Part shown: positions 2,331 through 64,000 of the stretch, in pieces
Position numbering within the stretch: position 1 is the first letter of the stretch
Layout of the letters: each line of letters begins with the position of its first letter
DNA from: Limnoperna fortunei
Lineage: Eukaryota; Mollusca; Bivalvia; Mytilida; Modiolidae
Direction of reading: 5' to 3'
DNA: 64,000 nt
Assembly (NCBI GenBank): GCA_944474755.1
Contig: OX104123.1
Location: 17,860,275 to 17,924,274 of the forward strand
The notes under the pieces: model-generated
Told to the model about the DNA's origin: nothing
The model's database searches: none
Seen by the model: only the letters and a program-made list of their open reading frames with translations
Position numbers and translations under genes: made by a program

Positions 2331-4658
2331 TTACATTGCTCTTGTGCTCAAGTGCCTTCGTTGGAACTTGTCTGCTGCTCCAAATGTGGAGAGGGATTTC
2401 GTAATGGGAAATACAAATTTCTGTATCCTGGCTTCATCCTCAGGAACAATAAGTGCTGAGTCATTAATCTGTAAAGAAATGAAATTGAATTACAGAAACC
2501 AAATTTGCATATGAGTTGTGACATCGAAACCAACATTTTTAAATGAGCTATTTTCTAGGCGGATTTAAGATACAGATTTGCAAACATTAATACAGCATTA
2601 TAAAATGAATATAAGGAGCAGAAACCTAAAGCACTTCACTTACCAGAGATTTTGTTCTTATTTCAATTCCATATTCATTGGTAACATAAAACAACGTTTG
2701 TTTATATCCATCTTTTTGATCATTTCTTCATTGAATGATTGTGCTTGTATTATCTCTCCATCTTCCATGTGAAAATCCATTACAAAATACTTTTTAGTTT
2801 TTCCTGACCTAGTGTTGATTCCCCTGAATGAATATGGTTCTAGAATCTTGCTTGTGGCCTGGGAAAAAAATGGATATAAATTGGTTTGTGGTTAAAAACC
2901 ATTTTGGCCTAACCCGACCCTTCAGGTTAGCTATTGCCATCATTAAACATTACATGCTTTATGTACAAACAATACAAAAGCAGAACTCACAAATCTATCA
3001 TTTATTTAGATTGGTGTAACATGATGACATATTTTGTCAAAGAACTATTTTAGAGCCTTTAGGTTTCTGAAATTTCTAACGCTCCTGCAGATAAAACATA
3101 ACTTAACCGCAGGAGGCACTACAACTGGCTGGTCCATTTTCTTTGCTGTTACTACATTTTCATTTTCTTGTAGCTCTTTGCTGTTACTACATTTTCATTT
3201 TCTTTTAGCCTGACATTGAACCGTAGTGGGTAACGTGTTTGGAGAGTGCCACGCTCCTTGCACGATAGACCCCCTTTTATAGATTTCGAATAAGAGTAGG
3301 CTCATTGTAGCCGCTACAAAAGGCTAAATTTTCCGCCCCTAGCCAAAACTTCATTCTTTTCCAGTGGCAGTCAAAATTGTATTCCCTGTGACCCATCCCA
3401 CCCCCAACTATATATTTGTAATAAAAGAAGAATATAATTGAATAATTCTTGTTATCATTTTATTTGGGCTCCTTCCTGATATGTTAATTATAGGTATCAG
3501 ATTTTGGAAAGTGGAATGATTATTTCTTTTCATCTGAAAAAGGGGCGCGAGAACAGAAATAAAATATAATAACTCCTTCAGATCCTAAAAACACTTTTTT
3601 ATGAATGTAGCTACAGATTAGAATAGTCTTAGTGTACTGTTGGAGTCTTTGGGGTGCTATTATGTGGTGTTCTTTCTTCATCTTGTTGTTTTGAACTTGA
3701 TTGCATTTCGGTTGATCCTTTATAGCTTATAGGAGTGCTCTGTTCTGTGTGAGATGTAACTCTCCTATTTGAAAAGTGTGTCTTTGGTTCAGCTGGTACT
3801 GGTGAAATGCTTCTAGGATGTATCTAGACAGTATAAGACAACATGATATCAGTATTTATGTTTCGTTTCAGAGTTCACCAAAAGTACAAATTTTACAGTC
3901 ATGCTCTGAAATTATTTAAAAGAAGACTTAATTTTGATTCACGACTGCAAAGCCACACTTCAAAATACACTGTGCCTATTCTTCATGATATTTATAATTA
4001 TTTATCAAACCCCCCCCCCCCCCAAAAAAAAACCACAAACACACCATAATGCTAAGTACAATATTGGATAACAAACTTTTTTCTAGTAGCGCTGACAATT
4101 CAAAGTTTATATATATAACATGAAATAAAAGCCATTGCTATATAATATAAAATTTCTTTGAAAAAACTATTCTCTATGAAACAAGACAGGAGAAGCCCGT
4201 AAAATCCTTAAAACCCGATGTCAGATCTAAGCTCAGCAAGTGCTCCTCAGAGAGAGGAGGAAGATACCCGCACAGATCAGTATCATTATGTCCCCTTTCA
4301 ATTTGGCGGATAACATGTGTTTTGGGTGTGAATTTTCCATTACTCGAAAGCGGTCGACAAACTTTAAGATAAAACAGAATTGGATGTTTTTCTTAATATA
4401 TACCTGGCGTAAAGTACCGTCATCTTCAGATTCAACACTGTTGGGTATAAGAGAAATATGTGTAGAGTCATCTGTATCTTTTGTAACCATTACTGGCAGG
4501 TCTGGAATGTTCTTTAGAATTTCATCATCTGATATGTCTGATAATTCGCTAGACATAATGGTTCTAATATGGAACTTATCTGATATGTCTGATAATTCGC
4601 TAGATATAATGGTTCTAATGTGGAACTTATCTGATATGTCTGATAATTCGCTAGACAT
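2331..4658 (-). CDS. small four-exon gene of unknown function, one frameshift
   Basis: Not a family I recognise. Four minus-strand blocks join in a consistent frame: 4,404-4,658, 3,638-3,823, 2,644-2,858 and 2,331-2,468, the last ending in TAA. Each junction has an AG acceptor and a GT donor (GTATAT, GTACAC, GTAAGT) and all introns are phase 0. Exon lengths 255, 186 and 138 are multiples of three; the 215-nt third exon is one base short, with the frame switching at an A5 run near its middle. So it is either a recent pseudogene or carries a sequence error. The product is about 215 residues: an acidic Ser/Asp-rich N-terminus with a 17-residue unit repeated (MSSELSDISD...), a Ser/Thr/Pro-rich linker containing HPRSISP and KTPT, a more globular part, and a basic end (FQRRHLSTRAM). 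The donor after exon 2 is weak. The start could be any of three in-frame repeat ATGs; 4,658 is the most upstream. Confidence 0.5.
3232..3430. repeat. dispersed repeat fragment shared with 54,170-54,350
   Basis: The stretch AAGAGTAGGCTC, followed by GCTAAATTTTC, recurs with similar spacing near 54,206-54,250. It resembles tails of abundant mollusc interspersed repeats. Boundaries are not clear, and it lies in an intron of the small gene at 2.3-4.7 kb. Confidence 0.35.
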
Positions 4659-46109: not shown

Positions 46110-47277
46110 ATATAATTTTACCTTTATCGTTTATTGTGTTACTGCCCCATAAAGGGTTGTGTCCGTTGAAGTCCCCAAGTAATATATAAGGGGCCGGAAG
46201 CTGATCAGTAAGAGGTGTCAACTGATTAAAATTTAATGAAGAATTCGGAGGGATATACACAGAGCATAAAGTAATTGTTTTGTCTAAAGATATTCTAACA
46301 GGAACCGCATGAAGATCAGTGTTGAGATATACAGGGCTATGTAGAACTTGATCTTTTACAAGAATGGTAGAGCCGCCAGCAGTTCTATCATTCTCGTCTA
46401 CATATGTGCTAGGGGATCTACTTTTTGATCCGGTATCTGGGGGTAATGTATATGGGATCGCCCCAGATAGTAGTGTCTAGATGATCTAGACTACCAAACC
46501 TGTTGTGGACCTTAATGGCATCCCCAAGCAGTTTTGGAGTACGATCTCCTTTTTGATTTGAGTTTTTTTTTTTTAAATTGAATTGGAGTTAGAAGATTTT
46601 ATATTTGAATTGGACTTAATATTTGAATATTTTTTTGGGCTGCTTGAAGAATTAGTTGAGGATTGAGTGAGTGTTGAAGACGTAGTAGATGCGGAAGTCG
46701 TAGAAGTTTGAGATGCTGAAGATTTTCGAGATGATGTAATTATTTTATCAGTGGTTTGAGCCGGTAGTCTTGTTGGGTCTTTTCGATCTATATGCCAGGT
46801 GATCATGGTTTGCGTTTCAAATGTAACATAAACGCGTTTGTCACACTGACATATGACATTACAGAAGACGACGGATTACTCACTGAACTAAAGAGACGAC
46901 GAGCCTCAGGGTAAGTGATGTTCTTTTCTGTTTTCAATTTTTGTATGTCCTTTTCTTTTTTAAAATGATGACAGTCTTTTGAGGACGACATGTGGGCTTC
47001 ACCGCAATTGGCACACTTTGGGTTGTTTGTGCAGGTAAAGCCCTCATGCCCTACCTCTGCACAGTTAAAGCATACGAAGGAGCCTCTAAATTGTTCCTTG
47101 CCATGACCAACCTTTTGGCATTTAAAACAGCGCACAGGATTTGGGATATATGCGCTGACTTTAACGCTGTATAGTCCAATTTTGATAGACTGAGGGACAG
47201 ATGGAGAATTAAAGTTGAGCAGAAAGGTATTCAGTTTTACCTGAATATCTTGTCTCTTGGCAACGAATCTTTTGACC
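46110..47277 (-). pseudogene. LINE copy 3, downstream fragment (ORF1 end plus endonuclease piece)
   Basis: A minus-strand fragment of the same LINE family. 46,412-47,277 encodes the middle and end of ORF1, with three knuckles (CFKCQKVGHGKEQF has lost its final Cys; CFNCAEVGHEGFTC and CANCGEAHMSSSKDC are intact). 46,110-46,411 encodes endonuclease residues (AGGSTILVKDQ to the GDFN block). Between them about 220 bases present in copy 1 (16,213-16,436) are missing. The reverse transcriptase and 3' end are absent. The 5' side continues at 63,874. Confidence 0.88.
47274..47277. repeat. 4-bp target-site duplication, left
   Basis: GACC, repeated at 63,874-63,877. Removing one copy plus the intervening 16,596 bp restores a gap-free match to LINE ORF1 in copies 1 and 2. 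Confidence 0.9.
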
Positions 47278-47294
47278 GCGGGTATGTTTTAAGG
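47278..47294 (+). repeat. left terminal inverted repeat of the 16.6-kb element
   Basis: GCGGGTATGTTTTAAGG; pairs with 63,859-63,873. Confidence 0.88.
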
Positions 47295-47559
47295 GGAGAT
47301 CACCGTGTATTCAACTCATTATTATGCATGTCATGGCGGCTACGATCAACTGAGCGTCTATGTAAAAAGTGACGCACTTCTGAATTTTCCAAGAAACCCA
47401 TCAGAAAAGAATGTTGCTATATGATGAAATAGTTTATAAAATGCAAATATCTGTATTTATTTTTAATAAAACGGTGTTTTTGAACGTAACTTTGTTAAAA
47501 ATTACCGCTTCAACAACTGCCACTGATCAGCCAATCAACATCGAGCTTTGCTTTTCAAC

Positions 47560-47672
47560 GTCCCCGAGAAGCTTAAGCGCAGCCGAGCGAGCACCTGTCC
47601 AAATTATCCACTAATATTAGTTGCTTTCCGTAGCTGTAAAGAAGTTGCCGCAAATCATATTCAAAATTTGGT
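47560..47672 (+). promoter_or_regulatory. possible promoter and 5' non-coding exon for the SGNH gene
   Basis: A GC-richer stretch (CCGAGAAGCTTAAGCGCAGCC) is followed at about 47,671 by a consensus splice donor GGTAAGT. This could be an untranslated first exon spliced to just before 48,680, where a TTGTAAG-type acceptor after a pyrimidine run is seen at about 48,662. Weak evidence. Confidence 0.3.
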
Positions 47673-47679
47673 AAGTTTA

Positions 47680-48660
47680 ATTTACTTATTTTAATTTCTA
47701 GCAAACAAAATCATCAAACACTGTTTAGATTTGGTAGAACTTGAAATATTCGATTCACCATGTGTTGATGGGACGGAGCACGTGGTATATAAAAAAATTA
47801 ATATTTGACTTTTTAGTAAATGCAATCAATGGATTTCATGAAATTATTTCATTATTGTCATATTGATGTTATGTCTCTCCCGAAATAAGTTTACTACAGA
47901 TTTAATTAGAAACAATGCACAACACGTGATTGATTGTGTTTAACTTTAAGTTTCTGCTATAGCCTATATCATATTATCAGGAGCATTTTATAATAGTATG
48001 GTCTCGTCCCTGGCAATATTCAGGACAAAGACAATTTAGCAAACTATAAAACAATTTGGGGAAAATGCACCAAAGGGGTAAAAATGTATAAAGCCAAAGG
48101 AAAAGTATGGGGTAATGGGCAGACTATGCTTGGCGAAAAGATAGCCTTTTGTAGTGCCTACAACAGTCCTGCTCTTGGAAACATCTAAAAAAGGGGGTTC
48201 TAACGGAAGGAGTGTAGCCAAACATGTAACCCACTGTGCACTGTGGTCCGTTTTTAGTCTTTCAGGTGTATTACTATTACCCCCCCTTTCCCCACACACA
48301 TACTGAGACGGTAGCATCCCTTAAAGTTATTGGCCACCTAGCAGGGAAACGCGCTATGTAGCTCTGCTTTGAGTTGACCAATATGAACACGCACACACAG
48401 CATGGTCCCAGTGGTTGAAGATTAAAAGCCTTCTTTATACATCCATGCAAATCATATTGCCTTTATTGGTTCTAATCAATATTGTTTTATATGTGACCAG
48501 GATATTTTTGTTCAAAATTTGGTAATTATACATTGTTTAATAACTAAATTACTAAAAAAATGTCCTTTTTTGACAAACAAAAACAAACAGTACTGCAGAT
48601 GTATTATGTAAGTAATTTTGTGGTACATTCAAAACTTTTTTTTCTGATAAAGTATTTGTA
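47680..48660. other. no gene seen
   Basis: Possible intron of the SGNH gene. The segment at 48,000-48,350 is GC-richer and may be a repeat, but no boundary or coding motif was found. Confidence 0.4.
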
Positions 48661-48679
48661 AGTTTATTTAACTTGAAAT

Positions 48680-49295
48680 TTGAAAATGCCAGCTGTTAAT
48701 GTGTTGGTCTTGGGCCATAGCTTTGTCAACAGATTGTGGCAAGACATTAGATGTTTAAGGGACCCTGCTCTTGTGCCTCATTTGAATTTAAGAAATTCTA
48801 ATGTTCGCGTTAGATTTCTTGGTTTAAGTGGGGGTAATATCAACACCCTCCTAAATGATGCACAGGGCAGGGTCAGACAGGAGTTGGATAATTTCCCTCC
48901 TCGTGTCGTCATTTTGCAGATAGGTGGTAATGATATAGACACGCAGTGTTTCAATACTGAACTCTATAAGATAAAATTGAAAGAATTCATTGCAAAATTA
49001 CGCAATGAATTTTCGGTCGAAAAGGTCGTGGTTTGTGAAGTTTTTGGTAGGCTCCGCCTTCGTAATTCTGAACTAGATACCTACCAAAAAAATAGGAGAC
49101 AGGTTAATTTGGACTTGTGTTTGGAGTTTTCCAGAGAGGAGCACGTCCGTTTTTTGGCATCACAAAGGTGGCCTTATGTGTAAGGAGGAAGAGCTGTTTT
49201 TAGCCGATGGGGTCCACCTTAACCTGACAGGAACCAAAAAGTTTTTCAGAAGTTTAAGGGGTGCAGCAATGTCAGTGGTTAAATCTCTGCCTTAA
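48680..49295 (+). CDS. SGNH/GDSL-type hydrolase-like gene, one homopolymer frameshift
   Basis: SGNH hydrolases are Ser-His esterases; the reaction of this one is unknown. Blocks visible: VLVLGHSFVNRL near the start (nucleophile Ser in GHS), FLGLSGGNI (block II Gly), ILQIGGNDID (block III Asn) and ADGVHLNLTGTKKF near the end (Asp and His of the triad). The frame is open from 48,680 to about 49,150. An extra T in a run of six (49,150-49,155) then shifts it, and the catalytic DGVH block lies in the next frame, ending with TAA at 49,293-49,295. Everything else is intact, so this is either a very young mutation or a sequencing error. The ATG at 48,680 places the nucleophile motif at about residues 9-15, normal for small SGNH proteins (about 200 residues). 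It converges with the transposase gene of the same element. SGNH domains are known as passengers in several eukaryotic transposons. Confidence 0.75.
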
Positions 49296-49376
49296 ATTGC
49301 TGTTTTTCATCTTGCCATTATAACAAATTCTGAAAACTGTTTCAGTCAGTTAGCACATAAATTGTTCCTGTCACCA

Positions 49377-49563
49377 CAGTGTTCTCCCCAGAAATTTTTA
49401 ATAGCATCCTGGTATTTTCAGTTTTCACAATAGCATCATTTGCTTTGAAATTATAGCATCACATTTCTTATGAAATATATTAAGGATGTTTTCAGAAAGC
49501 ATCATATTTGAACCAGATAGCATCACATTGCCAGGATGCTAAAAGGGCCTGGGGAGAACACTG
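49377..49563. mobile_element. 187-bp MITE with 15-bp TIRs and 5-bp duplication
   Basis: Ends CAGTGTTCTCCCCAG and CTGGGGAGAACACTG are perfect inverted repeats. CACCA flanks both sides (49,372-49,376 and 49,564-49,568). The inside has several ATAGCATCA words. It inserted into the 3' flank of the SGNH gene. Confidence 0.88.
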
Positions 49564-49863
49564 CACCAATGTTGCTTCAATGATTTGGTACTTGTATTGT
49601 CCTCCTCTCAATATCGATCCCCTCGATGTTGCTTCAATTACCTAGCACTATAATATTAATGTTCAGTATGTTTCGAGTTGCTTCTGTGAGTTAGCATATA
49701 ATTTTAGTAGGAATTATATAAACCTCTGTGTTTATATCATTACCACAATATTAGCATTTTAAATGTAGCACAATCAAGTTTGTATATACAGTAGTTGGCA
49801 GGACTATTTATTCTGGTAGCAATTTTTTTAAAAAAATTAGTTTACCTTTGTTAAACCCGTATT

Positions 49864-49910
49864 GTATCCTGATAGGTGGTCCACAGGGGTGGCAATGTCT
49901 TTCAGGATAC
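49864..49910 (+). promoter_or_regulatory. hairpin motif in the 3' flank of the SGNH gene
   Basis: Arms GTATCCTGA and TCAGGATAC enclose GGTGGTCCACAGGGGTGGCA. The same motif lies at 54,783-54,832 on the other strand, just after the transposase stop, so both convergent genes carry it in sense orientation. Confidence 0.6.
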
Positions 49911-50159
49911 GAGGTTTTGTAATGTTTGATCAATTAACATTTCAATGACTCCCTGCTTTTTGAAAATTAATTTACTGCATTAAAAAAAACACAATTTAAC
50001 TTAATATGACTGCTCACTTTAATTTTGCTAGTATATCCCAGGTGCTTTTTTTTTAATTTGGACAGGCCTGTTCGCTCAAAATATTCTAGACTGTAATTTA
50101 CGAATTCTTTTATATTTAGTCTATGAGTTCTGTTTTGCATTCAAATAAAATAAGAGATG

Positions 50160-50460
50160 TTTTTGTCTGATCTCTGTCTTGTTCATTTGGTTCTTGTTCT
50201 TTTTCTTCTCATTCTTGTTATTTATCTGTTTATTATGTTCTGTTGATGCGTTATCAAATAATAATAGATGTTTTGTGAGATGTTTTTTGTTCTTGTTCAT
50301 CATGTTTTTGTTCTTGTTCTTCTTGTTCTCAATCTGTTTGTTACGTTCTGTTGGTGTTCTCAAAAGATATGTTTTGTCAGATTCTTTTTTTAATTCTTGT
50401 TCTCTCTCTGTTTACTATATTTTCCTGTTGTTGCATTCTCAAATATTGTCTCATTCTATA
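50160..50460. repeat. TTCTTG-type low-complexity tract
   Basis: Many TTGTTC and TTCTTGT words with two longer echoes (TGTTCTGTTGATGCG and TGTTCTGTTGGTG). The open frames here on both strands come from the repeat and are not genes. Confidence 0.7.
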
Positions 50461-50754
50461 GAAGTTATCGATTAGAAATATATACATATACAATTGTATT
50501 TACTATTTAAAATCATTCAACGACTCCACTTGATATTGATTCTCAAATTCAATGTACATCTTAATAAATTTCTGTTTAAAATTAGCAAATTTAGAATTTA
50601 AATTTACAGCCCTTTAAATTTTAGTTAACCATTAGTCATGATATGTTTTACACTTACCATTATTATGGTTTTTTTTACTATATATTGCAAATAATAAGTT
50701 ACATTTTTTATTTAAAATGTATGAATGTCATTTGGTTGTAAGTATAAGTATTAT

Positions 50755-50755
<1 letters not shown>

Positions 50756-50785
<30 letters not shown>

Positions 50786-50798
50786 GTTTTGTTTTGTT
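50756..50798. repeat. (GTTTT)n microsatellite
   Basis: About eight perfect GTTTT units. Confidence 0.95.
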
Positions 50799-51267
50799 GT
50801 TTTCTATGTTTCCATTGTATTACTTTCTTGTGTTTGTTTAAAATCACTTTCTGGCTTAGTGATATTGTGTTGTTAGTTTTCTTAAGCCAGGAGTAGAACT
50901 GTGTTTTCAAGTTGTCATCGGTATTCACACTTTGTTGTTTTCTGATTATAATTTACCAGTAAGTTCAGTCGATTTCTTTGCAAAACTCTTTGATCATGTG
51001 TTTCAGTTTGATCTTTTGATTTTTACCAAATATCCTGCATTTTTATTGGCAAAACTTAACAGTCTGGGATTAAAGCACATTTTTGTTTATTGTTATTGAA
51101 TAGTTTAGAATACATGCTAACGCAAAGAGTTTCAATTTAAAAATTTTTTTTAAGTATTGCTTGTCTTTTTAAAATTAACACGAGTTCTGCTCAAGATTCA
51201 GTACGAGACCATGAGCAATAGTACAGAATCCTTACGTAACCTTTTTAAATGGATTCATCTACTCCAG

Positions 51268-51692
51268 GGTTTGACACTAGCACTGGGCGGCATAATCATT
51301 TGAGGGCTAGTTGATAGTTAAATACAGTACCTGAGATGGGCTAGTGGTTTTGCAAGTTGCTGTTCAACTCCACTTTGTTTCAATTAAAAAGCGATGTTGA
51401 ATTTAACCTGTATATTTGACTTTTTCCCATTTTGGTAAGAAATATTCGTAATTTTGTCACTGTGTCTAGCTAATCGTGTTTACGCACCATTAACAATATA
51501 AAAGCAGTTAAAGCTTGTTCCAATCTGAATTTTACTTTGTACAAAAGTTAATGGTGCGTAAACGCGATTTGAGCATATTGTGAAAATGTGGCCCCTGGTT
51601 GGTACTAGTAGTAAATCTTGCTGAGGGCTATTTATTTTTAAAAGGACACTAGCCCTGTAGACTTTCACTTTAACAGATAGTGTCCAACCCTT
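51268..51692. mobile_element. MITE-like element with GGGTT(T/G)GACACTA ends
   Basis: The left end GGGTTTGACACTAGCAC and right end TAGTGTCCAACCC are inverted copies with one mismatch in 13. Inner GGGCTAG/CTAGCCCT words are also inverted. A second, smaller palindrome sits inside it at 51,471-51,569. Confidence 0.6.
51471..51569. repeat. 99-bp palindrome nested in the MITE-like element
   Basis: Arms TAATCGTGTTTACGCACCAT and ATGGTGCGTAAACGCGATT pair over about 23 bp with one mismatch. Likely a later small insertion. Confidence 0.65.
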
Positions 51693-52734
51693 TTCTCGTA
51701 CTGGGTTGCTAGAGGGCCTGATGATTTGGTCATTAATTAGATTCAGTATACTTTTATATAGTTCTAAAAAAAATCAAATAATGAATTTAATATTTGTAAA
51801 GTGAAGACCAAGTGATCAGTGTATTCGCCAATAAAACCGGTGGACGTGTTAGAAATAAAAGTGCAAAATTTTTGTCTTTACAAGATTTTTTTTTTTATTG
51901 TAGCTGGCACCGCTTGATATTTTTAACATATTCTGATTCAAGCTTAGAACAAACATTTTCGAATTGTATTCATATATAACACCAACATTTCTAACATTTT
52001 TAAAAAAGGGTGTAAATTACATTTAAAAAATAATGGGTCTAGTAAATGGGACAGATTTGAAAGTAATGTATGCTATGCATGTACATATAATGGTGATGAT
52101 AAGTGTTTCCTTTTTTTTTCCATCTAGTGTTGGATGTTGAAACCAGTTCAAAACAGATTTTAAATATGAAGACCAGTTGATGATGGATTCTGGTATTTTT
52201 ATATGTAAGTGATTTAGAAAACAATTTTTATGTTGCATGGAATTTAATGTCATCACAAACAAAAGTTTTATGTTTATACAGTAGGATTTCTGAGACTTTT
52301 TTATGAACTCTTAAATCACTAAATGAATATGAGCTATTTCAGCTTGTGGTCACTCTGCATTTTAAAGCCACATTAATACATTTTATTTATATATTGAAAG
52401 GTACAATGTCTTTAACAATCTTAATTTTTTTTTGTTGGTTTGAATAAAACAATTCAGACTGTACTATCGGAACGTATTTTACTAATTTAAACTATAATTT
52501 GGTAAATCTGCTTTTGCAAATTGTAGAAAGACCAAACAGAAACTATGCTGCAGTGTAAACTTTTCTCTTTGTATTAATTAATGTGGCTTTTTCTTCCAGG
52601 CTTGTGACTGGCAAGATTTTGTATATCTTGGCTGCATTCCCCACCTCCCACCACACTTTTAATCAGTCCAGGTTAGGCTGCATTAAACCACACCTTTGCA
52701 ATAAGCAAGATGTATTCAGTGCAAAAGACAGGTT

Positions 52735-52925
52735 AAAAAGTTTCTCTTCTGAAACTACATGTACTCTTACTTTATAATACATTTTCTCCTCCTAAACTAC
52801 TCTTACTTTAAAATACATGTTCTCCTCTGAAACTACTCTTACTTTATAATACATTTTCTCCTCTGAAACTACTCTTCCTTTATAATACATTTTCTCCTCT
52901 GAAACTACTCTTACTTTATAATACA
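52735..52925. repeat. tandem ~38-bp repeat, about five units
   Basis: GAAACTACTCTTACTTTATA followed by ATACATTTTCTCCTCT repeats about five times, with one diverged first unit. Confidence 0.9.
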
Positions 52926-53564
52926 TTAATAAACATGTACATGTAAATAAAAATCTGAAGTTTCTTTCTGAAATTAGTGCCAATTGAACCAAACCTTAAT
53001 TAAGTGCAAGTTTCACTAGTAATTGAGCATTACAAAGAAAAGCTTTACTTTAGTATATACATGTAGTATGCTGATATTTTAATTAACTTGTGAAACTTGA
53101 ATTAAATATTATCCATGTGCCTAATATTTTTTCATGGATTGACTTTCCAAAATAACATTATTCATTGCCTATTAAATCCTGTGTATTAAAACAATGCTCG
53201 TCTCAAGATATACATGCATTTGTATAGGCAGACATTCCTGGACCGATTTAATTGTAAACACAAAGCATAATTTTTGTTTATGTCTTCTTGTGCTTTGTTT
53301 ATATTATGTGGCCATATCAAGTACAGCAGCACATATTTTCTAGTCTTGACTTGCACTTAATTCAGCATACTAGTACAGTATTGATAAAATGTTGTTGTTC
53401 AGTAGTCCAAGTCTCTTGTGTCCTTCATACTTGCACCTGTAATAATATTGGTAATTGTTGCATTAAGTTTGATAAAACTGTTAATTCATGCTTGTAGGAA
53501 AATTGGAGTACTATTTTCAGTGTAAATTTATTTTAAAAAAATATTATTGGGTAGTTGATTAAAA

Positions 53565-53640
53565 ACTGGATGCCATAATAGAGCTTAGAAATTGCTGATA
53601 GTGGCATAAAACACAACTCAAACCAAACAAACATTTTTTA
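53565..53640 (+). repeat. SINE/LINE-tail-like dispersed repeat
   Basis: ACTGGATGCCATAATAGAGC, then AAATTGCTGATAGTGGC and an ACAAACAT tail; same family as 8,055-8,230 and 36,030-36,150. Confidence 0.5.
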
Positions 53641-54169
53641 TTTTATTCAAGTTTTTTATTTTTATATTTTTTTTTTATTATTTTTTTTTTTGCAAAGTAT
53701 AACCAACTTTTCATGTGTAGAAAAAAATTGAATGAACTTAAAGTGTATCTACATACGTCATATAAAATTTTAATACTTAATATAACTAATACTGCTACAT
53801 GTCGCTTGACAACAAGCAATCAATTTATTTTAAAACCTACAGCTACTTTACAGCTATGTCATATTTTGACTTTTCCCTTCATTCACAGTGGCATTCCACC
53901 ACTTGGACTATTAACCTGATTTTCTTACCATATATATTACATTAAGCTCGTCTACTTTAAGGGTAGTGTGAACAATTGACAATCTGCTTTGAAACCACAA
54001 GGTCAATTTATAAACTAGACATTTATGTCTTTTATTCCATTAGAAATTCAAGATGTTGCAGCCACTGCAGAACAGATGGGACGCCATAGAATATGTCAAA
54101 CTGTTGAGCACATCTGCAGGTGATGCAAAGCAAGGTAGTGGACCTTAATAGGTGATATGCTTGTAGAAT

Positions 54170-54350
54170 GTCACTATAGTTGCATGCTGAAGACTTCTTG
54201 ATGTAGGTAAGAGTAGGCTCCTTGCATTCACTACAAATGCTAAATTTTCTGCACATCTTTTTCCTTTTCCCAATCTGTGATTTGTTAACTTGCGCTGAAT
54301 ATAGCTGAAAAACTGTTCGTTAAACGTTACGAAGGCATCCAATCATTTGG
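54170..54350. repeat. dispersed repeat fragment
   Basis: Shares AAGAGTAGGCTC and GCTAAATTTTC with 3,232-3,430 and ends with GCTGAAAAACTGTTCGTTAA, similar to mollusc repeat tails. Confidence 0.4.
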
Positions 54351-54782
54351 TAATGCATAAAATTGTAATGGAGTATTATGTTAAATTACATTTTTTTCTA
54401 TGTCTGATTACTTTTTAACCAGCAGCCAGGTTTTTATTAGACTTCTATTCAGAAACATTTAACAAACTTAAACAAACTTAAAAGCGCTATGCAATATATG
54501 GCCCTTTTTTAAGTCGGTATACATATGGTTTTTATGCTAGTTTGTAATTTAACCTGTAACCCTTAAATGAAGCATGAAGTCCCCCTTCCCACAATGAATG
54601 GTTGAAAAAATCAAAATACATCCGAGCTGCAGTATACTTATCTGTCCTTAGAGGTACTGTGGGTCCAATGGATATCCTTTATTGCCAGTAGTCCAGTCCT
54701 CTGTGCCCACAAATTTTATACAATAACTTTACAAAGTGTTATTTAAATTGATATGGTAGTAGATAAAAAAATCAGCAGACTC

Positions 54783-54832
54783 TTGTATCATGAAAGGCAT
54801 TGCCACCCCTGTGGACCACCAATCAAGATATC
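54783..54832 (-). promoter_or_regulatory. hairpin motif in the 3' flank of the transposase gene
   Basis: Minus strand: GATATCTTGATTGGTGGTCC, then ACAGGGGTGGCAATGCC and TTTCATGATAC. It matches the motif at 49,864-49,910 in almost every position of the core, and starts about 75 bases after the stop codon. Confidence 0.6.
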
Positions 54833-54905
54833 ATGAGTTCTACTGCTTTTCAGGCGTAAAATTTTAAAACCAGAATTGTAAGGTTTTGAGATTTGTGAGA
54901 ACATG

Positions 54906-57900
54906 TTAAAGCCGAAGATGATCTATGCTGATGTTCCAACGTTTAAGTAAGGCTTCTATTTGTTGTTGCAGGTTGGTATTGCTATCCTTATTTATCTTCA
55001 TTTGACTGTGCTGGTGGAGTATTTTGAAACCAACTACTGCCTTGGCTTTATCATATTTTGTGCGGATGGAGTCGTCCCATGGATGTTGCGTTAGAATTCT
55101 TCTGTACTTTTGGTATGTTTTAACCTCGTCAGTTGAACCTAGCAGTTTTTCTATTAACTCTGTTGTGGACAGTTTGGCTGCAAAGAGTTAAATGTATATA
55201 TCAGCTGAAATTTGTAAAAGGCTTCGGACATTTGAGATTAATTCTTATTTCATTGATTTGATCTCACATGTGCAGGTAGAAAAACATCAGAAATTGCAAT
55301 TTACCTGGACTACTTATTTCTTTAATATGTGTCTGCTCTGGTTGGTGGTCTTCGGAATCTGGGATAAACGGGTTGTCATCTGATTCCTCGTCGCTGTCTC
55401 TTTTGTCTAGAAATGCCATACAATAGAATTTATACAAACTGTATATTTTCCATTTCAATTTCATCACATCATTTGTGCATGCTGTGTCATATATTTAAGC
55501 AAATGGGTACTACAGTGTCGCAACTGTGCTTGTGTAATTTGAATACCACAAAAGGGTAAGCAAAAATTTGACATTATTAAAATCTAATTTGTAGACACAT
55601 ATATACATGATATATACGGTATATGATGTAAGGGAAATGGAGAAATGCTGGGATTTTTGATGAGTTAAAGAGTAAATGTAGGATAAAGAAAGTTATAATT
55701 TCAGAATATGGATGTACACATGTATTTCCAACATGCAGCATACATGTGTGTTGTTTAAGTACCTTTTTTCTGTCTTTGGTTGTTTTCATCAAAGGTGAGC
55801 CTCCTTTTTGATGGTTTAGGGCGGTTGTCTTGTGCCAATTTGGTATTCGATACAAATTGTGTCATGCACCATGCAGCTGTTCTGATCTCCTGGAGCACTG
55901 GTGCTTCATCTGTTGACTTCTCTGCATTGTTTGTATAAAGATTATTTACATATATATTTTTCAATAAAGATTAATAAATGAATTAATAAGTAAGATTACA
56001 TTTTCGACCAACTGATGACCTTCTTCAGTGTCAATTATAAATCTATTCTCATACAGTAAATTTGTTATTTTTACCATGTTCTGTTTAGCCAGTGATAGTG
56101 TTTAGAACTATTGACTGGCAAGATCATTTATTTTATAATTAATGAATAATAAAAATACAAAAGTTAAAACCCGAGTATTAAGCATTGGTAAAAGTTGTTC
56201 ATATGTATCGGGCAATTTTTCAGAAATAAACAGCACATTAAAATCATTTTCTCAATATTTATTGTCTTTTCTGGATGTATGTAAAAGTTTTGGACTATGT
56301 ATGTTGCCATATTTATTATTGGTTAAATGTATTGCTAAAAATGATTATTCACCAATAATAAACAACTTTTCCAATTAGTTTTCCAACCATTTACATTTAT
56401 ATCTGATTCTCATTTGCTGATAGTGAGACTTTGCATGCAATACTTTTTTACATTGTTTTTAATGTACATCATTAAATTTGAAACGCACCAGGAATGATGG
56501 GATCTGTAGCCTGGCTGGAATTTTGTGATAATGGGTCATCTGTAAATAAATATAAACTATGTTATGTCTTACAGCTTCTGAGTTGTATTGACATTTATGT
56601 TGTTTTTTTTTATTCCAGAAGAAAGAATAACGGTATAAAAACATCCACAGAGAAATGTGAGTACAAAATATGCTGATAAAGTATACCAAACTATTTATTG
56701 AAAATTTCTTATATTTTGATAGCTAAGTTAAAAAACAACTAGTCATATTTATTTGAAAGACCTCTTGTGAAAAAAGTGATCTCGTAGTAAATGTTCTATA
56801 TTTTTCACAGACTCTTAGTTTATAGTTTCTATAATTTCTGGTTTTTAGTTATTTTACCCAATTTATGCTGTAAGTGTAAGAAAACCAGTTTTCCATCCTT
56901 CTTTATCTTTAATTTTGAAATTGGTAGTTCAAGTTTATTATCTTTGATATGGTCAAGACACTGTTCCCAAAGAATGTTTATTTTAGATATTTCTTTTTTC
57001 AGGGTAGTTAAACGGAAGTTTGAAAGGAAAGGTCCATCAGGTCTGGAACTTGGCTCCTGTAAACTGTCGTGAAAAACAACATTATCGCCATCGAAGTGCC
57101 ACCAAATATTGCATCCTGGAAGAAGAAAATCAGCAATCCTTGATAAATGAGCTTGAAGAACGGATGACTTTTCCTGTAGCATTTTTTTGGAGATGATGGT
57201 GTTAGCACGTTGTGGTAGCAATTTAGCTTGTCGGCTTATAATAGAGTCTTGCTTGTGGAAAGAATTGGTATGGTTATCATTGGACTGTTGAGCATTGTAA
57301 CGTAGAATGGATTGGTCTATAATCCAGCCAGGTTTTCTGTTAGTTGTTGTTTCTGCTAGTTTTCTTAAAGTTCCAAATGATCTTTCTTCCTGTTCCGTTA
57401 ATATGGATTTGGTGTTAATAATTCGGTAAATTTCTGGTAGGTGTGTGACTAGACTGTGAAAGTGATTACCATACAGTTTCCGGGAAGTCATTTTGATCGG
57501 TGTTCCTATTACAGATTTGGTTAAGATGCCAAAAAGAAATGTAAGATTGTAAAGACGAAGTATTTGTTTTGGTGATCTCTTGTCCTCAGAACTGTACGCA
57601 ATGTTAATAATTTCGACCAGGGCATAAATCAAATCTTTAACGTCTGTTGAAACCTTGTTTTCTTCATGCAAATTTCCAATAAATTTGGCCAATTTAATTG
57701 CGAAAAGCCTGGCGTCGGATCCCTTTATTTGGTTTTTATCTCCGATGGTACTGGAGCAGAACTTCTCTAATTCGGTTGTTGCCTGCCTGTTGTCTACATG
57801 GTATGGAAGTTCAGTTATGATGTTTTGAACAACATTACAAATATCATGTAGGGGTTCACATGACATTATCTCGTAACTGTCAAGATTCATTTCAGCTGCT

Positions 57901-60900
57901 GTTTTATCTGGAGAATTAATAAATAATGCTGGTGGTCTGCATACCCCATGAAGAGTAGATGTCAATTCTTCCTGTAAATCCGATTTAGAGTTAAGCTGGA
58001 AAGTATCAATACCTCGATCTTCAAGCTCATCTATCAGCTGATCTTTCTTTAAATTTTGAAATGGATTGATGTTGCCATCCTTTATTGTGTTAAAAGCTGA
58101 TCCTTTAATGACAAGTTGTCTACGGTCTTCTATGTCAAGTGGTATTATTTTAAAGCAGGCCTCCAAATTAACGTGATTTTTGGCCTCTATGCCACATATA
58201 CAGCTGTAATTCCCTCCGCGCTGTTGGCCTGCTTCAAACTGTCTTGCTGGTCCATCGCCGCTAAAGAGTCGCAATTTGAATTCAAGTTGTATGTCCTGGA
58301 AACAGATTTTGTCAATTAACTGTCTAATGTCCTCTGTCCTGGTTTCTGTGTATGTCACTTGTTCTTTGTCCTTGCTGGCTGTGAATAGAAAAATGAAAAT
58401 ATGACACTATTGTATAAAAGAATTTATGTTTGAAGAATTTCATTTTGGTAATATGGAAGGCCATAATAAATTTAAAAAAAACTACATTGCTCTAATTTGG
58501 GGAAGGGGTGCATTATATTTTTTTAAGTTTTGGGTCATTTTTACAGGGAGTAATTGCTACCATGTTTTCCTTTTATAAATCTTGAATCTAAAGTTGCCCG
58601 TAAATTGATTATCACAGAACTGAATTCAGATTAGATATGAGATATATCCTGAATTAACATGGACAGTATCTTTCCAAAAATGATTTTAGAAATTTAAAAA
58701 AAGTATGGGTTGAAATTGGAGCAAGATTTTTTTTTATTATGGCCTAAGATTGTGCATTCCATCAGTATCAAATTTCTAAATATTAGTTATAGTATACAAC
58801 TAATGACTTTGATATAGGTCGCTATCGGGATATATCATCTAGAGAAAATGTAATATTGAATAAACATTTTTGAGGGCCGAGAAATCCTGATAGCAACCGT
58901 ATATCAGTCAGTAATTGTTTTATTACATGAATAAAATTACCATATTTCTTTATCAGAAAAAACAGGCTGCTTACATTTTGTAATTGTTGTAATGCTGGTT
59001 ACTCTGAATATTTTCTGTTAACACTTTATTTTGATTTTGTTTTGCTGATATTCCTGAAAGTTCAGTTTCATCAGATTTCAAAATATATGGAAAACAGTAT
59101 AAAAAATCGGTTATTTTATTCTAACATCTCTTAGCAGTATACATTTGTGTATTTTATTATAGCAGATGATTAAATGACCACTAAAATTGAAATTTATAGT
59201 TGTGTCATCCTCACAAGTACATGTAAGGGTTTCTGTGTCAACGAAACCCTGACAAACTTAACTAGGAAATTCCCGATCTAGAAGGCGCTATTTTGATTAG
59301 CTACATCATACCTTAATGTAGCCAATCAAAAGCTCGCTTTCATTCACGACTTGGTTAGGGGATATCCCGATGTCGATTGTAAATAAACCAAACATGTGTT
59401 GCATAGACCATGTGCAAATCTGTGTATTTTGTAAAGTAGTGTAAATAGCTTGTTATTACAGCATTATTTATTAGTTGTGTTACATTTTCTTCCAACTCAA
59501 GAATGAGTAAGAATGACTACTGCGAAACACTTGCTTCTTTCAAGCAATTTCATTGATTGACATTTTGAAGGATTGACGCCATACGAAAATCTTCTTGCCC
59601 AGGAATGTCTTAGCTAAGTTTGTCAGGGTTTTGTGGACAAAGAAACCCTGACTTGTGAGGATGTTGTGTTGGAACAGTAATAAAAGACAGGCTTAAACTG
59701 GTAAATATCAGGTCAATATTGAATTCTGCTGCACAGTAGTCAAGCTGAATCTAATATTCACCTGGTTGTGACCAGTTGATGCCCGTTTTTATGTAATTTT
59801 ACTACTGTTGTGTTCAAACGTGACCCAAAAGTTTTTTTTAGACCAATTAAAAACACTCGAAATTCTATTTATGTAATAATGTTATAATTCAGTATATTTT
59901 GTTAATGTTAGTGTCAGTACATATGTCATATGTTTTATTTACTTTGTACAATACAATTGTAATTGAAAAAGCCTAAATTTTGTAACAGTTTTTTATCCAA
60001 TTTTTATAGGATTTGAAATTGTACAATGAGAGTATATTTACAAAGAAATTTTATCGATTCGACTGTTGTGTGTTGATAATATTAATTCTTTATATTTAAC
60101 AGATGTATTCATTTGCAAGTCAACATAGTTAAACAGTTTAATGTACCCAAGGGACTGGCAATTGTATTGGCAGAATGAATATATTAAAATACAAACCATA
60201 TATTAGATCCACACAATGCATGGAATTGTGTATACATGTATTATTAAGGAATTCGTATTTTCTTCCCACACTCACCAGAGTGGGGTTGAAAAGGGGGGGG
60301 GGGTGTATATAGTGGTCCTACGGTTGATGTCCAATCATCAATCAAAATTTATATATGTAACTACTATGTAGATGGTAGAGTTTAACACAAATGTTAGCCC
60401 TTTATAAAACATGAATTGTTGTGGATGCTGATAGGTGGAGTTATAAACTTGCAACAAAAATGTCATTTTATTATTTTTATGCAATGTCATCATTTTTATA
60501 CTTTTATGCAGTTGACAATCTCTGGTTTCTTGTCCAAGAGAAAGATGTATCTAATGTTAAAACTTTGTAGCCATTCAAATATGTTAGTTGTATAGGGCCA
60601 GGTTGTGCCATCACTTGTCGTCTCTCTGAAAGAATTTAAATTAGAATATATATTTACATGGCTTATGGTTGTTATGTTAATACATGTATTATAAACATAT
60701 ATTATATTAGTCATAAAATTGTATACCTGATTGTCCAAATATGTACAGTTGAGGCTTTTCAACTATTGATTGGACACTGATCTTTTTTGCCAACTTTTTG
60801 CTGGTCTGGTACTCCTCGTCAGTCAGAAAGTTTGCATGGTCATACAAGATGTTTGTCATAAAGTTGATGTATGTGTGGTTGAGAATATCGGAATGGTCAT

Positions 60901-61978
60901 GCCACATTTTTAGATGGAATGTTCTTTCAAATTTCTTTAACTTCTCTCGCATGTCATTGGACGGTAGAGTTATATTTTCTCCTAAAGTCATTAAACGTGA
61001 TTTGACCTGTTCGTCAGAAAGGGTGTCGTAGTGCATGTCGTCATGAAGAAGAAGAACTCCGGCTTGATGCAATCGGGATAATTCAGATAAAATTATTCTT
61101 CGTAGGTTGATTTTTCTGCCATGTACTTCGGTCCGTTTTTCAATTAAGCTGCCGTCCGTACCCAAAATGTTGGCAATAACTGTTTTTGGTGCTATTTTTG
61201 TGCCAAGATAAAATGTTCCGTCGGATATTTTTTGTTGGACTACTTCTTTTATTTTCTTCGAAGATCTGGGAGTTGGGATTGTAATTCTTTTCATTACCCT
61301 TTTTTTAGAACGTCGTATACGGTGAAGAATATCTCTACCTGAAACTATCTTGTGCTTGTTTACAGATGTGACGTCAATTCCATTGGACTTTGCAAACATA
61401 AAAAGTATCTGGCCAGCGTTGTGTGGGGAGTTTCCTGTAACCTTATGTGTGACGTTATATTTCTTACCTAGTCGGGTCCAATTAACTATGCCGTTTGGAA
61501 TTAATGATTGAATTTCAAGAAGAAAATCTTCCTTGTTGAAACTGTAGTTCTCGAATTTTCCATGGTGTTTCTTAGGGGCAAGCATTCCCATTTTTTCCTT
61601 TTCTAATTGCTCATTTTTTTGTTGCTCTGCTTCATTACGGGTGTTAAATAGTAGCATTCTCTCGCGGTCGTGTTGTTGGTATGATTTTCCAGAGGATAGA
61701 AAGTTTTCAATGTCGGCGTTGTTGATTGTTGATGCTTCACAGATCTTGTTTTTATTTTCTTTTAACAGTGTAACTATTTGTTTGTTCTTATCTGATGGTG
61801 TTTCTCTTGGTGTTAAGTGAAGAGAATCGGCCACACATTTTTCAAATGATTTTTTGAATTCCTTTTCGAAAAGTGGATTCAAGACATTGATCAATGCTGT
61901 TGCTGTCCGGTTAGCTTTCACATTGGCTGTTGATGGTTGTATCAGAGTTGACATGTTTTGAACTAATACCTCGCTCAT
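54906..61978 (-). CDS. DDE-transposase-like protein of the 16.6-kb element, intact, six exons
   Basis: Exons 60,727-61,978, 56,858-58,378, 56,489-56,539, 55,763-55,921, 55,305-55,406 and 54,906-55,177 total 3,357 nt. They read without a stop for 1,118 residues; every intron is GT-AG and phase 1. The N-terminal ~420 residues carry a helix-turn-helix-like stretch (VNWTRLGKKYNVTHK), KRITIPTPRSSKK, and then LKMWHDHSDILNHTYINFM and EKPQLYIFG. The catalytic-type core follows: FSGDGPARQFEAGQQRGGNY plus CIC (Asp about 459), a SAP-like insertion (NLKKDQLIDELEDRGIDTFQ), SCEPLHDI (about 592-597, like the D-x-x-H block of CACTA-type enzymes), then RLYNLTFLFGIL, RKLYGNHFHSLVTHLPEIYR and TEQEERSFGTLRK (acidic residues about 746-749). 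The C-terminus is acidic. I know similar uncharacterised multi-copy proteins in cnidarians and molluscs but cannot name a superfamily. A 130-nt block near 60,625 could be an alternative exon. Confidence 0.82.
58810..58906. repeat. 97-bp palindrome
   Basis: TGATATAGGTCGCTATCGGG pairs with CCTGATAGCAACCGTATATC; about 22-bp arms with few mismatches. Confidence 0.6.
59206..59663. mobile_element. 458-bp MITE with long TIRs and 6-bp duplication
   Basis: The left end CATCCTCACAAGT, then GGGTTTC and AAACCCTGACAAACTTA, is mirrored at the right: TTTGTCAGGGTTT, then GAAACCCTGACTTGTGAGGA. Arms are about 60 bp, imperfect. TTGTGT flanks both sides (59,200-59,205 and 59,664-59,669). It lies in the transposase intron. 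Confidence 0.82.
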
Positions 61979-62427
61979 GTTTGCAACTTGAACTGAACTC
62001 TTGGCAATGGATTGGTGAATTTAGATGTTTCTAGATGTACTGTGTTGCATGGGAGGCAGTTTTCAAATGTATGTTGTTTTCTTTCATTTCCTGGGAGTTG
62101 CAACCATTTTACTAGGTTGAAATGGGACAAGAAAACTTCTCTCTCACCAGTTTTACCTGCATTTTTGTAGTACTTTTTGTTGTACACATAGTCCTGTATC
62201 TTGTCTACCTTTTTACAAAATGTTTTGAAATCCTGAATTTGCAGAGATGGATAATTTTGCATGAATGTTGAATAGTTGTCAAAACGCTGCTTTAAAGATA
62301 GGGATGAATTATACATTGGTGTTTGTTCTTGTGCACTGCTAGATGGTGGATTGTTGAAATAGTTAATAGCAGTGGTATCTTTTGTCGACCTTGAAATTAT
62401 TACTTTCACAAAGTTGCAGATATTCAT
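61975..62427 (-). CDS. upstream ORF overlapping the transposase start (ATGA)
   Basis: A 150-residue frame just upstream of the transposase gene. Its TGA overlaps the downstream ATG as ATGA (61,975-61,978). It looks coding: KQRFDNYSTFMQNYPSLQIQ, CKKVDKIQDYVYNKKYYKN, FLSHFNLVKWLQLPGNERKQ, TFENCLPCNTVHL. Similar segments sit at the N-terminus of related proteins as I remember them, so it may be the first part of the transposase, shifted by one base, or a separate small protein translated by re-initiation. An intron that would join the frames was not evident. Confidence 0.55.
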   Translation of the reverse strand: MNICNFVKVIISRSTKDTTAINYFNNPPSSSAQEQTPMYNSSLSLKQRFDNYSTFMQNYPSLQIQDFKTFCKKVDKIQDYVYNKKYYKNAGKTGEREVFLSHFNLVKWLQLPGNERKQHTFENCLPCNTVHLETSKFTNPLPRVQFKLQT

Positions 62428-62429
62428 TG

Positions 62430-63160
62430 TATGTTTGTAAAATTAGCTTTAAACAATAGAAATTAATTTTTATGTTGTTTGATGATGATGTTGATGTTTC
62501 CAATAAAGACTGATAAAAGTGGATTGTTCTTGTTGTTCTTCTTGCACAGATTATCTAGCATGGAGGAACATAAATGTTCTGCAGTAAATGCAGAATAAAT
62601 TGGAATAAATAAATGTAATTGTGAAGTTGGTAGTTATAAGATCAGTGGTAAGATACATTATAAAATAAACTTATTCTATACGTAAAAGTGTTTAAAAGGT
62701 AAGTAAAAATCTTGTTTGTGCATTTTTATGTAGGTGACCAACATAAATGAGTTAAGCCAAAACACAAATAAAAGCATAATTAGAAATAAAATGGCATGTA
62801 TGCAACTGTTTCCTATCCTAGAAATTTAGTGGACAATTTATTATATTTTTGAGTGGAAGGGGTTCTGAACCAGATAAATATGTCGTGGTGTGCATTATGT
62901 AGATGTTATTCTTTTATAATAAAAGCTATATATGGATTGACAAAAGGAATAACTAAAACCTTTAATTCATATGATTTTATTTTCTTGTTATGGACCCCTT
63001 ACCAAGTGAACTGGAATCATAACAGTATACTAAACGGCAAAACAATGTCGATGTGTAACCCTACCCCCCTTTTTCTGCAAGGCTCTTGTGTAAGGAAACT
63101 TATGGAGTACATATAAATTGGAATGTATTTAAAGCACCATATACATAATTATGAGAAAAT
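62430..63160. other. no gene seen
   Basis: AT-rich sequence between the upstream ORF and the ORF at 63.2-63.5 kb; could be an intron of a longer transposase transcript. Confidence 0.4.
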
Positions 63161-63541
63161 TTATTTCATAAAATACACATAAATGCAAGACAAAAATTTT
63201 ACAATGACGAAAAACAATGGTTCTTCACTGTTCAAAATTGGCGCGCTATGAACTAGAGCAGTTATCTTCCCTGACACTGAATCGCAAAAACGTTTGTAAA
63301 CAATGGTCGGGATTTGTCGCCCTGTAGACGTCAACATAAATTGGCTTGGCCCTACCTTTTGTCCGGGTAATTTTGAATGCACCATTATATCATTCTGTTC
63401 GGAAAACCACCAGGAATAATTTTTTACGTGGCGATAGAGCCTTGTAGGTATTTGTACTGTAATATTTTGTTGAAGAATGCGAGGTTCCCAACGTACTGTT
63501 TTGGTACTATAAATTTTAACAGATTTCCTTCTTTTAAGCAT
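63161..63541 (-). CDS. unidentified ORF near the right end of the 16.6-kb element
   Basis: 126 residues, basic N-terminus (MLKRRKSVKIYSTKTVRWEP), then QIPTRLYRHVKNYSWWFSEQ and STGRQIPTIVYKRFCDS. The segment is GC-richer than its surroundings and shares strand with the transposase gene, so it may be a 5' exon or a small accessory gene. A GTAAAATT donor-like site lies before its hydrophobic end. No family recognised. Confidence 0.35.
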   Translation of the reverse strand: MLKRRKSVKIYSTKTVRWEPRILQQNITVQIPTRLYRHVKNYSWWFSEQNDIMVHSKLPGQKVGPSQFMLTSTGRQIPTIVYKRFCDSVSGKITALVHSAPILNSEEPLFFVIVKFLSCIYVYFMK

Positions 63542-63858
63542 CCCATGTGACTATCGCCAGTGTTTATCTGAAAAAAGACACATATATACATATATTGGCA
63601 AAATTTCGTGCAGCAGAAATGTGCATAAAAGGTAGGGCCATTGCGTTTAAAATACAGAGAAGCTATAAATAAAACCTTGTCACGTGATCATCAAGGGAAA
63701 TCCTTGCAAAATGAAAGTAGGTCAAAATCCATAAAAAAAGTACCACCCTTTAAGCTGTTATTGTCAAAATCGAAAATATTCTCGTTGTTTGAATGTTTTG
63801 TGTCTTGGAAGATTGATTTCTTTAATGCATGTATTTGTTGTATATTTCTCGTAGGCAG

Positions 63859-63873
63859 CCTTAACATACCCGC
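63859..63873 (-). repeat. right terminal inverted repeat of the 16.6-kb element
   Basis: CCTTAACATACCCGC, the inverse of the left end except for two missing bases. Confidence 0.88.
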
Positions 63874-64000
63874 GACCTTTGTTACACCCTGAGGTTTGAG
63901 TTCTTCACAAATTTCGTCGTCCGTTAGTTCAGAGAGATCGTCGTCTCTGTAACGAATGATCCCTTGACAAGAATTTAATGTTCTGTGAGGAGTGGAAGAT
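63874..64000 (-). pseudogene. LINE copy 3, upstream fragment (ORF1), runs off the window
   Basis: Minus strand: SSTPHRTLNSCQGIIRYRDD, then LSELTDDEICEELKPQG, matching ORF1 of copies 1 and 2 just before the point where the fragment at 47,277 resumes. It opens with the GACC duplication. The element's 5' UTR would lie beyond the window. Confidence 0.92.

Follow-up and report, generated by a model that had tools for sequence, protein, structure and literature searches.

In a 64,000-nucleotide stretch of the Limnoperna fortunei genome (assembly GCA_944474755.1, contig OX104123.1, positions 17,860,275 to 17,924,274; hereafter the window), we delimited a 16,598-bp element that is probably a class II cut-and-paste transposon. 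Its DDE transposase is predicted to have a core of the RAG1/Transib type and probably falls in the CMCT clade, in a lineage matched to no named one, with Mirage, Chapaev, Plavaka, ESTA and Lanisha compared by description only. The assignment builds on terminal inverted repeats (TIRs), 2-bp target duplications, a multi-copy family, deletion derivatives that have breakpoints and ends in common, a second family that carries the same terminal bases, and the predicted fold. The copy in the window is a dead, near-full-length member of this family. It interrupts a long interspersed nuclear element (LINE), and its boundaries were set from paired copies elsewhere in the genome together with the continuity of that LINE:

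46407..47276, minus strand: left part of the split LINE, open reading frame (ORF) 1 with zinc knuckles
47275..47276, no strand: left copy of the 2-bp target duplication, AC
47277..63874, no strand: whole element, CGCGGG...CCCGCG, 16,598 bp
47277..47288, plus strand: left TIR, of which only CGCGGGTATGTT remains
63856..63874, minus strand: right TIR, full 19 bp, CGCGGGTATGTTAAGGCTG
63875..63876, no strand: right copy of the target duplication, AC
63875..64000, minus strand: other half of the split LINE, running off the window end

An earlier reading of the window, made from its sequence alone, had described a LINE ORF1 split by an insertion with inverted-repeat ends, and both observations stand. 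With the element removed, the joined LINE flanks can be aligned through the junction with two other LINE copies of the window. These alignments are gap-free near the junction (225/272 and 208/263 identical positions), while the longer alignments contain gaps away from it, and the claim of gapless halves therefore applies to the junction region only. Because removing the element restores a continuous LINE, the insertion postdates the LINE copy that it splits. Two details of the sequence-only reading had to be revised. The boundaries 47278..63873 move outwards by one base on each side, because the ends of the other copies are CGCGGG..CCCGCG, and the proposed 4-bp duplication GACC gives way to the 2 bp (AC) seen with the paired copies: on the left, GACC consists of a LINE G, the duplicated AC and the first C of the element, and on the right of the last G of the element, AC and a LINE C. 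The window copy also lacks 22 bp, present in its relatives, just inside CGCGGGTATGTT, which explains why an inverted repeat of only 11 bases had been reported.

The same ends recur in the source genome (1.335 Gb searched; all counts include the window). We found at least 38 matches to the left end with an 83-base query and at least 28 to the right end with a 170-base query; five of these 28 had no recognisable terminus. Sixteen left ends could be paired by eye with a right end of the same orientation, and 22 left and 12 right ends remained unpaired. The inverted termini are thus not unique to the site at which they were first noticed. Identical dinucleotides directly adjoin CGCGGG...CCCGCG in 15 of the 16 pairs, and none of the 15 shares 3 bp; in the sixteenth, on contig 15, the left end is damaged. 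The duplicated dinucleotides were TA (6), AA (3), CA (2) and AC, TT, GA and TC (1 each). Two pairs on contig 13, at 1.44 and 4.41 Mb, have common flanks and represent one insertion that was later duplicated, so the number of independent target sites is 14. Outer flanks were likewise the same or nearly so within each of two groups of four left ends, one on contig 13 and one on contig 4 (60.39-60.44 Mb); each group represents one insertion, apparently spread by segmental duplication. At 61.786 Mb on contig 10, one copy of the family has inserted into another, its left end interrupting the right-end sequence of the older copy.

A 16-bp terminus pattern, allowing at most one mismatch, had 262 matches in the genome and the reversed control pattern three. 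Among the matches listed, 19 inverted pairs lie outside the element's own matches, mostly about 6 kb apart, with pairs of this size on contigs 2, 3, 5, 7, 9, 10, 11 and 12. We read 80 bp at each end of ten of the 19. These ten have the terminal 17 bases in common with the element and differ from it internally; nine carry a 2-bp duplication and none a 3-bp duplication, whereas their CG..CG ends were fixed by the search pattern itself. In the central 2.9 kb of one 6.05-kb copy, no ORF exceeded 110 codons, and neither the transposase nor the element's second gene, which encodes an SGNH-hydrolase-like protein, was matched significantly (best E 0.17); this copy therefore appears non-autonomous. That the two LINE halves and the matching ends are fortuitous is, given the multi-copy ends, the paired duplications, the LINE alignment and the reversed control, vanishingly improbable; a chance match or a rearrangement was rejected on the first and last of these grounds.

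The transposase gene lies on the minus strand:

60727..62427, minus strand: first transposase exon(s), with the N-terminus and the first catalytic Asp (WHDHSD); reading frame disrupted near 62,020
58379..60726, minus strand: inferred intron, donor CAG/GT, acceptor CAG, with a nested 457-bp repeat inside
about 56829..58378, minus strand: main catalytic exon, open, with the GDGP Asp, CxC, EPLHD, HFHSLVTH and EQEER
54906..55970, minus strand: C-terminal exons, boundaries approximate, the last ending at 54,906; the C-termini of homologs P0001 and P0002 are similar by eye

Homologs back both the N-terminus and the C-terminus of this gene model. A further exon between the main ones (60,635-60,507) was discarded, as the exons on either side are contiguous in the homologs. 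The gene had been described as intact and spliced; it does have several exons, but its N-terminal frame is broken near 62,020. At this position, 10 of 11 other copies continue in one frame. One of them, the contig-15 copy, reads through but has a broken catalytic exon, and the copy at 27.19 Mb on contig 12 lacks part of the first exon. None of the copies read contained a whole transposase gene.

An alignment of 58 homologs revealed a conserved DDE triad (D367 in 58/58, D465 in 57/58, and E751 in all 55 sequences with letters at that position). In the window, WHDHSD stands in the upstream exon, and the catalytic exon holds D51 and the candidate glutamates E338/E341. Two cysteines after the second aspartate were conserved in 58/58 and 57/58 homologs, and by script count 30 homologs have the spacing C(2)C, 27 have C(1)C and one has neither. 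The window and the bivalve rows inspected show C(1)C, and the cnidarian rows inspected C(2)C. Three histidines are conserved as well (H730 in 54/55, H735 in 55/55, H600 in 57/58). Each protein search scored only the roughly 8,000 candidates with most words in common. Among hits with organism names, the relatives came from bivalves and sea anemones; no name for them was found, and an alignment-based protein search returned mostly the same or similar unnamed proteins. Three homologs are labelled with other domains (P0055 chromo, P0117 SWIM-type, P0094 Pol poly protein), probably because of fused gene predictions. The distant homologs P0092 and P0095 match the SAP domain, and the catalytic exon of the window does so weakly (E 0.043). 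A viral origin was discarded after no match in BFVD at E 0.001.

Structure models, that of the window exon being made from ORF 56,832-58,406, predict a core fold of the RAG1/Transib kind in which the D/D/E and zinc-ligand positions are conserved. Among solved structures, VIA ranked RAG1, Transib and BbRAGL best for the predicted models, with lower Z values for the P element (10.7) and Hermes (6.3); its list contained no structure of CACTA, Mirage or Chapaev. With Foldseek at E 0.001, Transib was unlisted for either model and BbRAGL for the window-exon model. Sequence similarity to RAG1 was not detected, including by hhalign against a single RAG1. As a comparison, plain phmmer took mouse RAG1 to BbRAGL at 1.5e-68, and to HzTransib only at 0.0029.

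These folds raise the question of whether the element is a Transib or RAGL transposon proper that has lost its usual ends. A convergent gene pair, as described for RAG1L/RAG2L in RAGL transposons (PMC7204232), would agree with this, as would the top VIA ranks. Protostome RAGL transposons are, however, described as having 5-bp duplications and ends that start with CACT (PMC7204232). RAG1, RAGL and Transib share the 5-bp spacing, whereas the element duplicates 2 bp, with none of its 15 resolved pairs sharing even 3 bp. Its TIR, CGCGGGTATGTT, begins CGCGGG and differs from the CACT-type RAGL TIR, which resembles the heptamer of the recombination signal sequence (RSS), and its partner gene is SGNH-like instead of RAG2L; a Pfam scan of six window ORFs, with small exons outside the scan, found no kelch-like (RAG2-type) partner. 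Nor was similarity to RAG1 detected in the sequence, although mouse RAG1 reaches BbRAGL and, far more weakly, HzTransib. We consider such an origin very improbable.

The transposase is better accommodated in the wider CMCT clade. This clade is described as uniting EnSpm/CACTA, Mirage, Chapaev, Transib, Plavaka, ESTA, Lanisha and RAG1, marked by D, D and E, by C(2)C after the second D, and by H(3-4)H plus a third His before the E, with target duplications of 2-5 bp and, in most cases, 5'-CA..TG-3' ends (PMC12730594). The element resembles it in the DDE triad, the two cysteines after the second D, H(4)H plus a further His before the E, a duplication length within the range of the clade, and the RAG1-like predicted fold. 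It departs from it in the C(1)C spacing of the window and bivalve rows. A point that weighs against our assignment is that 15 of the 16 pairs end in CG..CG rather than the usual CA..TG. No sequence match of the transposase to a curated family was detectable. We filed the element in the clade at large, and not in Transib, RAGL or EnSpm proper, because of its predicted fold and motifs, its different ends and duplication, and the lack of a PF02992 match.

A closer competitor is an animal EnSpm/CACTA element, or a Mirage or Chapaev element, with divergent ends and already named in Repbase. We regard this as possible yet doubtful. Such an element would share with ours the motifs of the clade (two Cys, H(4)H and the third His), and 2-bp direct repeats are reported for SmTRC1 and related animal CACTA elements, in 7 of 14 SmTRC1 copies (PMC1636069). 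These elements are described with a Transposase_21 domain and CCC.. ends (PMC1636069), neither of which was found here. PF02992 was absent from 18 homologs at E 0.01, from six at E 10 (four common to both sets) and from the window ORFs, and the ends are CG..CG rather than CAC..GTG. The same genome does contain 60 PF02992 loci, none of them within the 16 paired copies when coordinates were compared by eye. The longest open frame among these CACTA-type loci has 1,014 codons.

Another member of the clade, ESTA, shares with the element a 2-bp duplication and similarity to RAG1 by remote comparison (PMC12730594). Compared by description, the ESTA duplication is TA, whereas TA accounts for only 6 of our 15 targets, next to AA, CA, AC, TT, GA and TC; and ESTA is described as fungal, with a TET/JBP partner (PMC12730594), where the element has an SGNH-like one. 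The likeness to Academ, Chapaev, Sola and Ginger that the sequence-only reading had drawn from a 4-bp duplication (lengths as given there) does not survive the 2-bp result. Its statement that this combination of ends and gene pair matches no named superfamily agrees with our analysis. The element had further been put forward as an undescribed system: no named lineage was matched, but its kind is known from the predicted RAG1/Transib fold and the CMCT motif set. No description of the lineage was found in the open-licence literature, which excludes most subscription papers and Repbase Reports.

The second gene stands at the other end of the element, in a block that is missing from other copies:

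48686..49295, plus strand: SGNH/GDSL-hydrolase-like gene, overlapping frames 48,677-49,183 and 49,077-49,295, frame broken
48642..51292, no strand: block holding the SGNH gene, missing in other copies with shared breakpoints

The SGNH-like ORF matches PF13472 (E 4.3e-10) and converges on the multi-exon transposase gene from the opposite strand, as had been proposed. It keeps what we take to be the Ser, Gly-Asn-Asp and Asp-x-x-His motifs of such hydrolases. Of the 15 other paired copies, 11 were read in sequence. Two of them are long, one on contig 15 (98% identity over 14.4 kb) and one on contig 13 at 1.44 Mb (87-94% by piece); the remaining nine are short, lacking both the SGNH block and the stretch with the second catalytic aspartate. 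In eight of the 11, the block is deleted at the identical breakpoint 1365/4017, with element positions 1366-4016 gone, and the ninth has different breakpoints. The window copy and those on contigs 15 and 13 each have a broken SGNH frame, at different places. The description as a two-gene element consequently fits the long copies only: the SGNH gene is missing from nine of 11 other copies, and its frame is whole in none of the three carriers read. Broken frames in the long copies and its absence from short copies that have spread argue that the gene is not needed in cis.

The exact loss of positions 1366-4016 from eight copies could also mean that the block is a separate insertion into some copies and no part of the transposon. 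This appears unlikely. Its edges have no terminal repeat or target duplication that we could see, the junction in the short copies resembles a deletion, and the same copies have lost other blocks too, including the second catalytic aspartate. Given such edges, loss of the block in an ancestor of the short copies is the most likely course. An SGNH hydrolase gene on a transposon is also reported from platyfish, where a Helitron captured it (PMC4021074); the carrier in the window is a DDE transposon.

Contigs 12 and 13 hold additional copies of the main catalytic exon that are 97-99% identical to that of the window and open over 521-525 codons, an identity that fits recent movement but may also reflect duplication. 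More distant relatives, at 46-54% identity, occur in the same genome, and their open frames reach 970 codons. Three repeats were observed inside the element. A 187-bp nested repeat (49377-49563) with CAGTGTTCTCCCC ends and a CACCA direct repeat is missing from the long contig-15 and contig-13 copies. A 457-bp nested repeat in the transposase intron (59206-59662), with ATCCTCACAAGTCAGGGTTTC ends and a GTTGTGT direct repeat, is missing from all nine short copies read. A 36-bp unit forms a 4.6-copy array at 52762-52927.

In the mechanism we propose, the transposase would bind the 19-bp ends CGCGGGTATGTTAAGGCTG, pair the two TIRs and excise the element, probably by nicking and hairpin formation as suggested by RAG and Transib. 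The 3' ends would then be joined to target strands 2 bp apart, and repair would yield the 2-bp duplication. Internally deleted derivatives and the family of about 6 kb could be mobilised in trans by full-length copies, with the SGNH gene as a putative passenger or accessory gene of the long form.

RAG1, which cuts antibody genes, descended from a transposase, and the chief clues to the origins of RSS recognition and hairpin formation come from its relatives. We tentatively suggest, with the chances for and against nearly balanced, that the element represents an undescribed superfamily-level RAG1-core lineage of Cnidaria and Bivalvia, distinct from both Transib/RAGL and EnSpm. This lineage would have CG..CG ends and 2-bp duplications, would have recruited an SGNH gene and would drive several non-autonomous families. 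If so, the catalytic architecture of RAG1 would be more widespread, and its target spacing more variable, than Transib and RAGL suggest, and the lineage would serve as a new outgroup in tracing how V(D)J recombination arose. A transposase that combines this core fold with different ends and 2- instead of 5-bp joining would allow tests of the parts of the RAG1 core responsible for spacing and end recognition. The assignment would also give a likely function to 'uncharacterized' proteins in the genomes of mussels, oysters, scallops and anemones.

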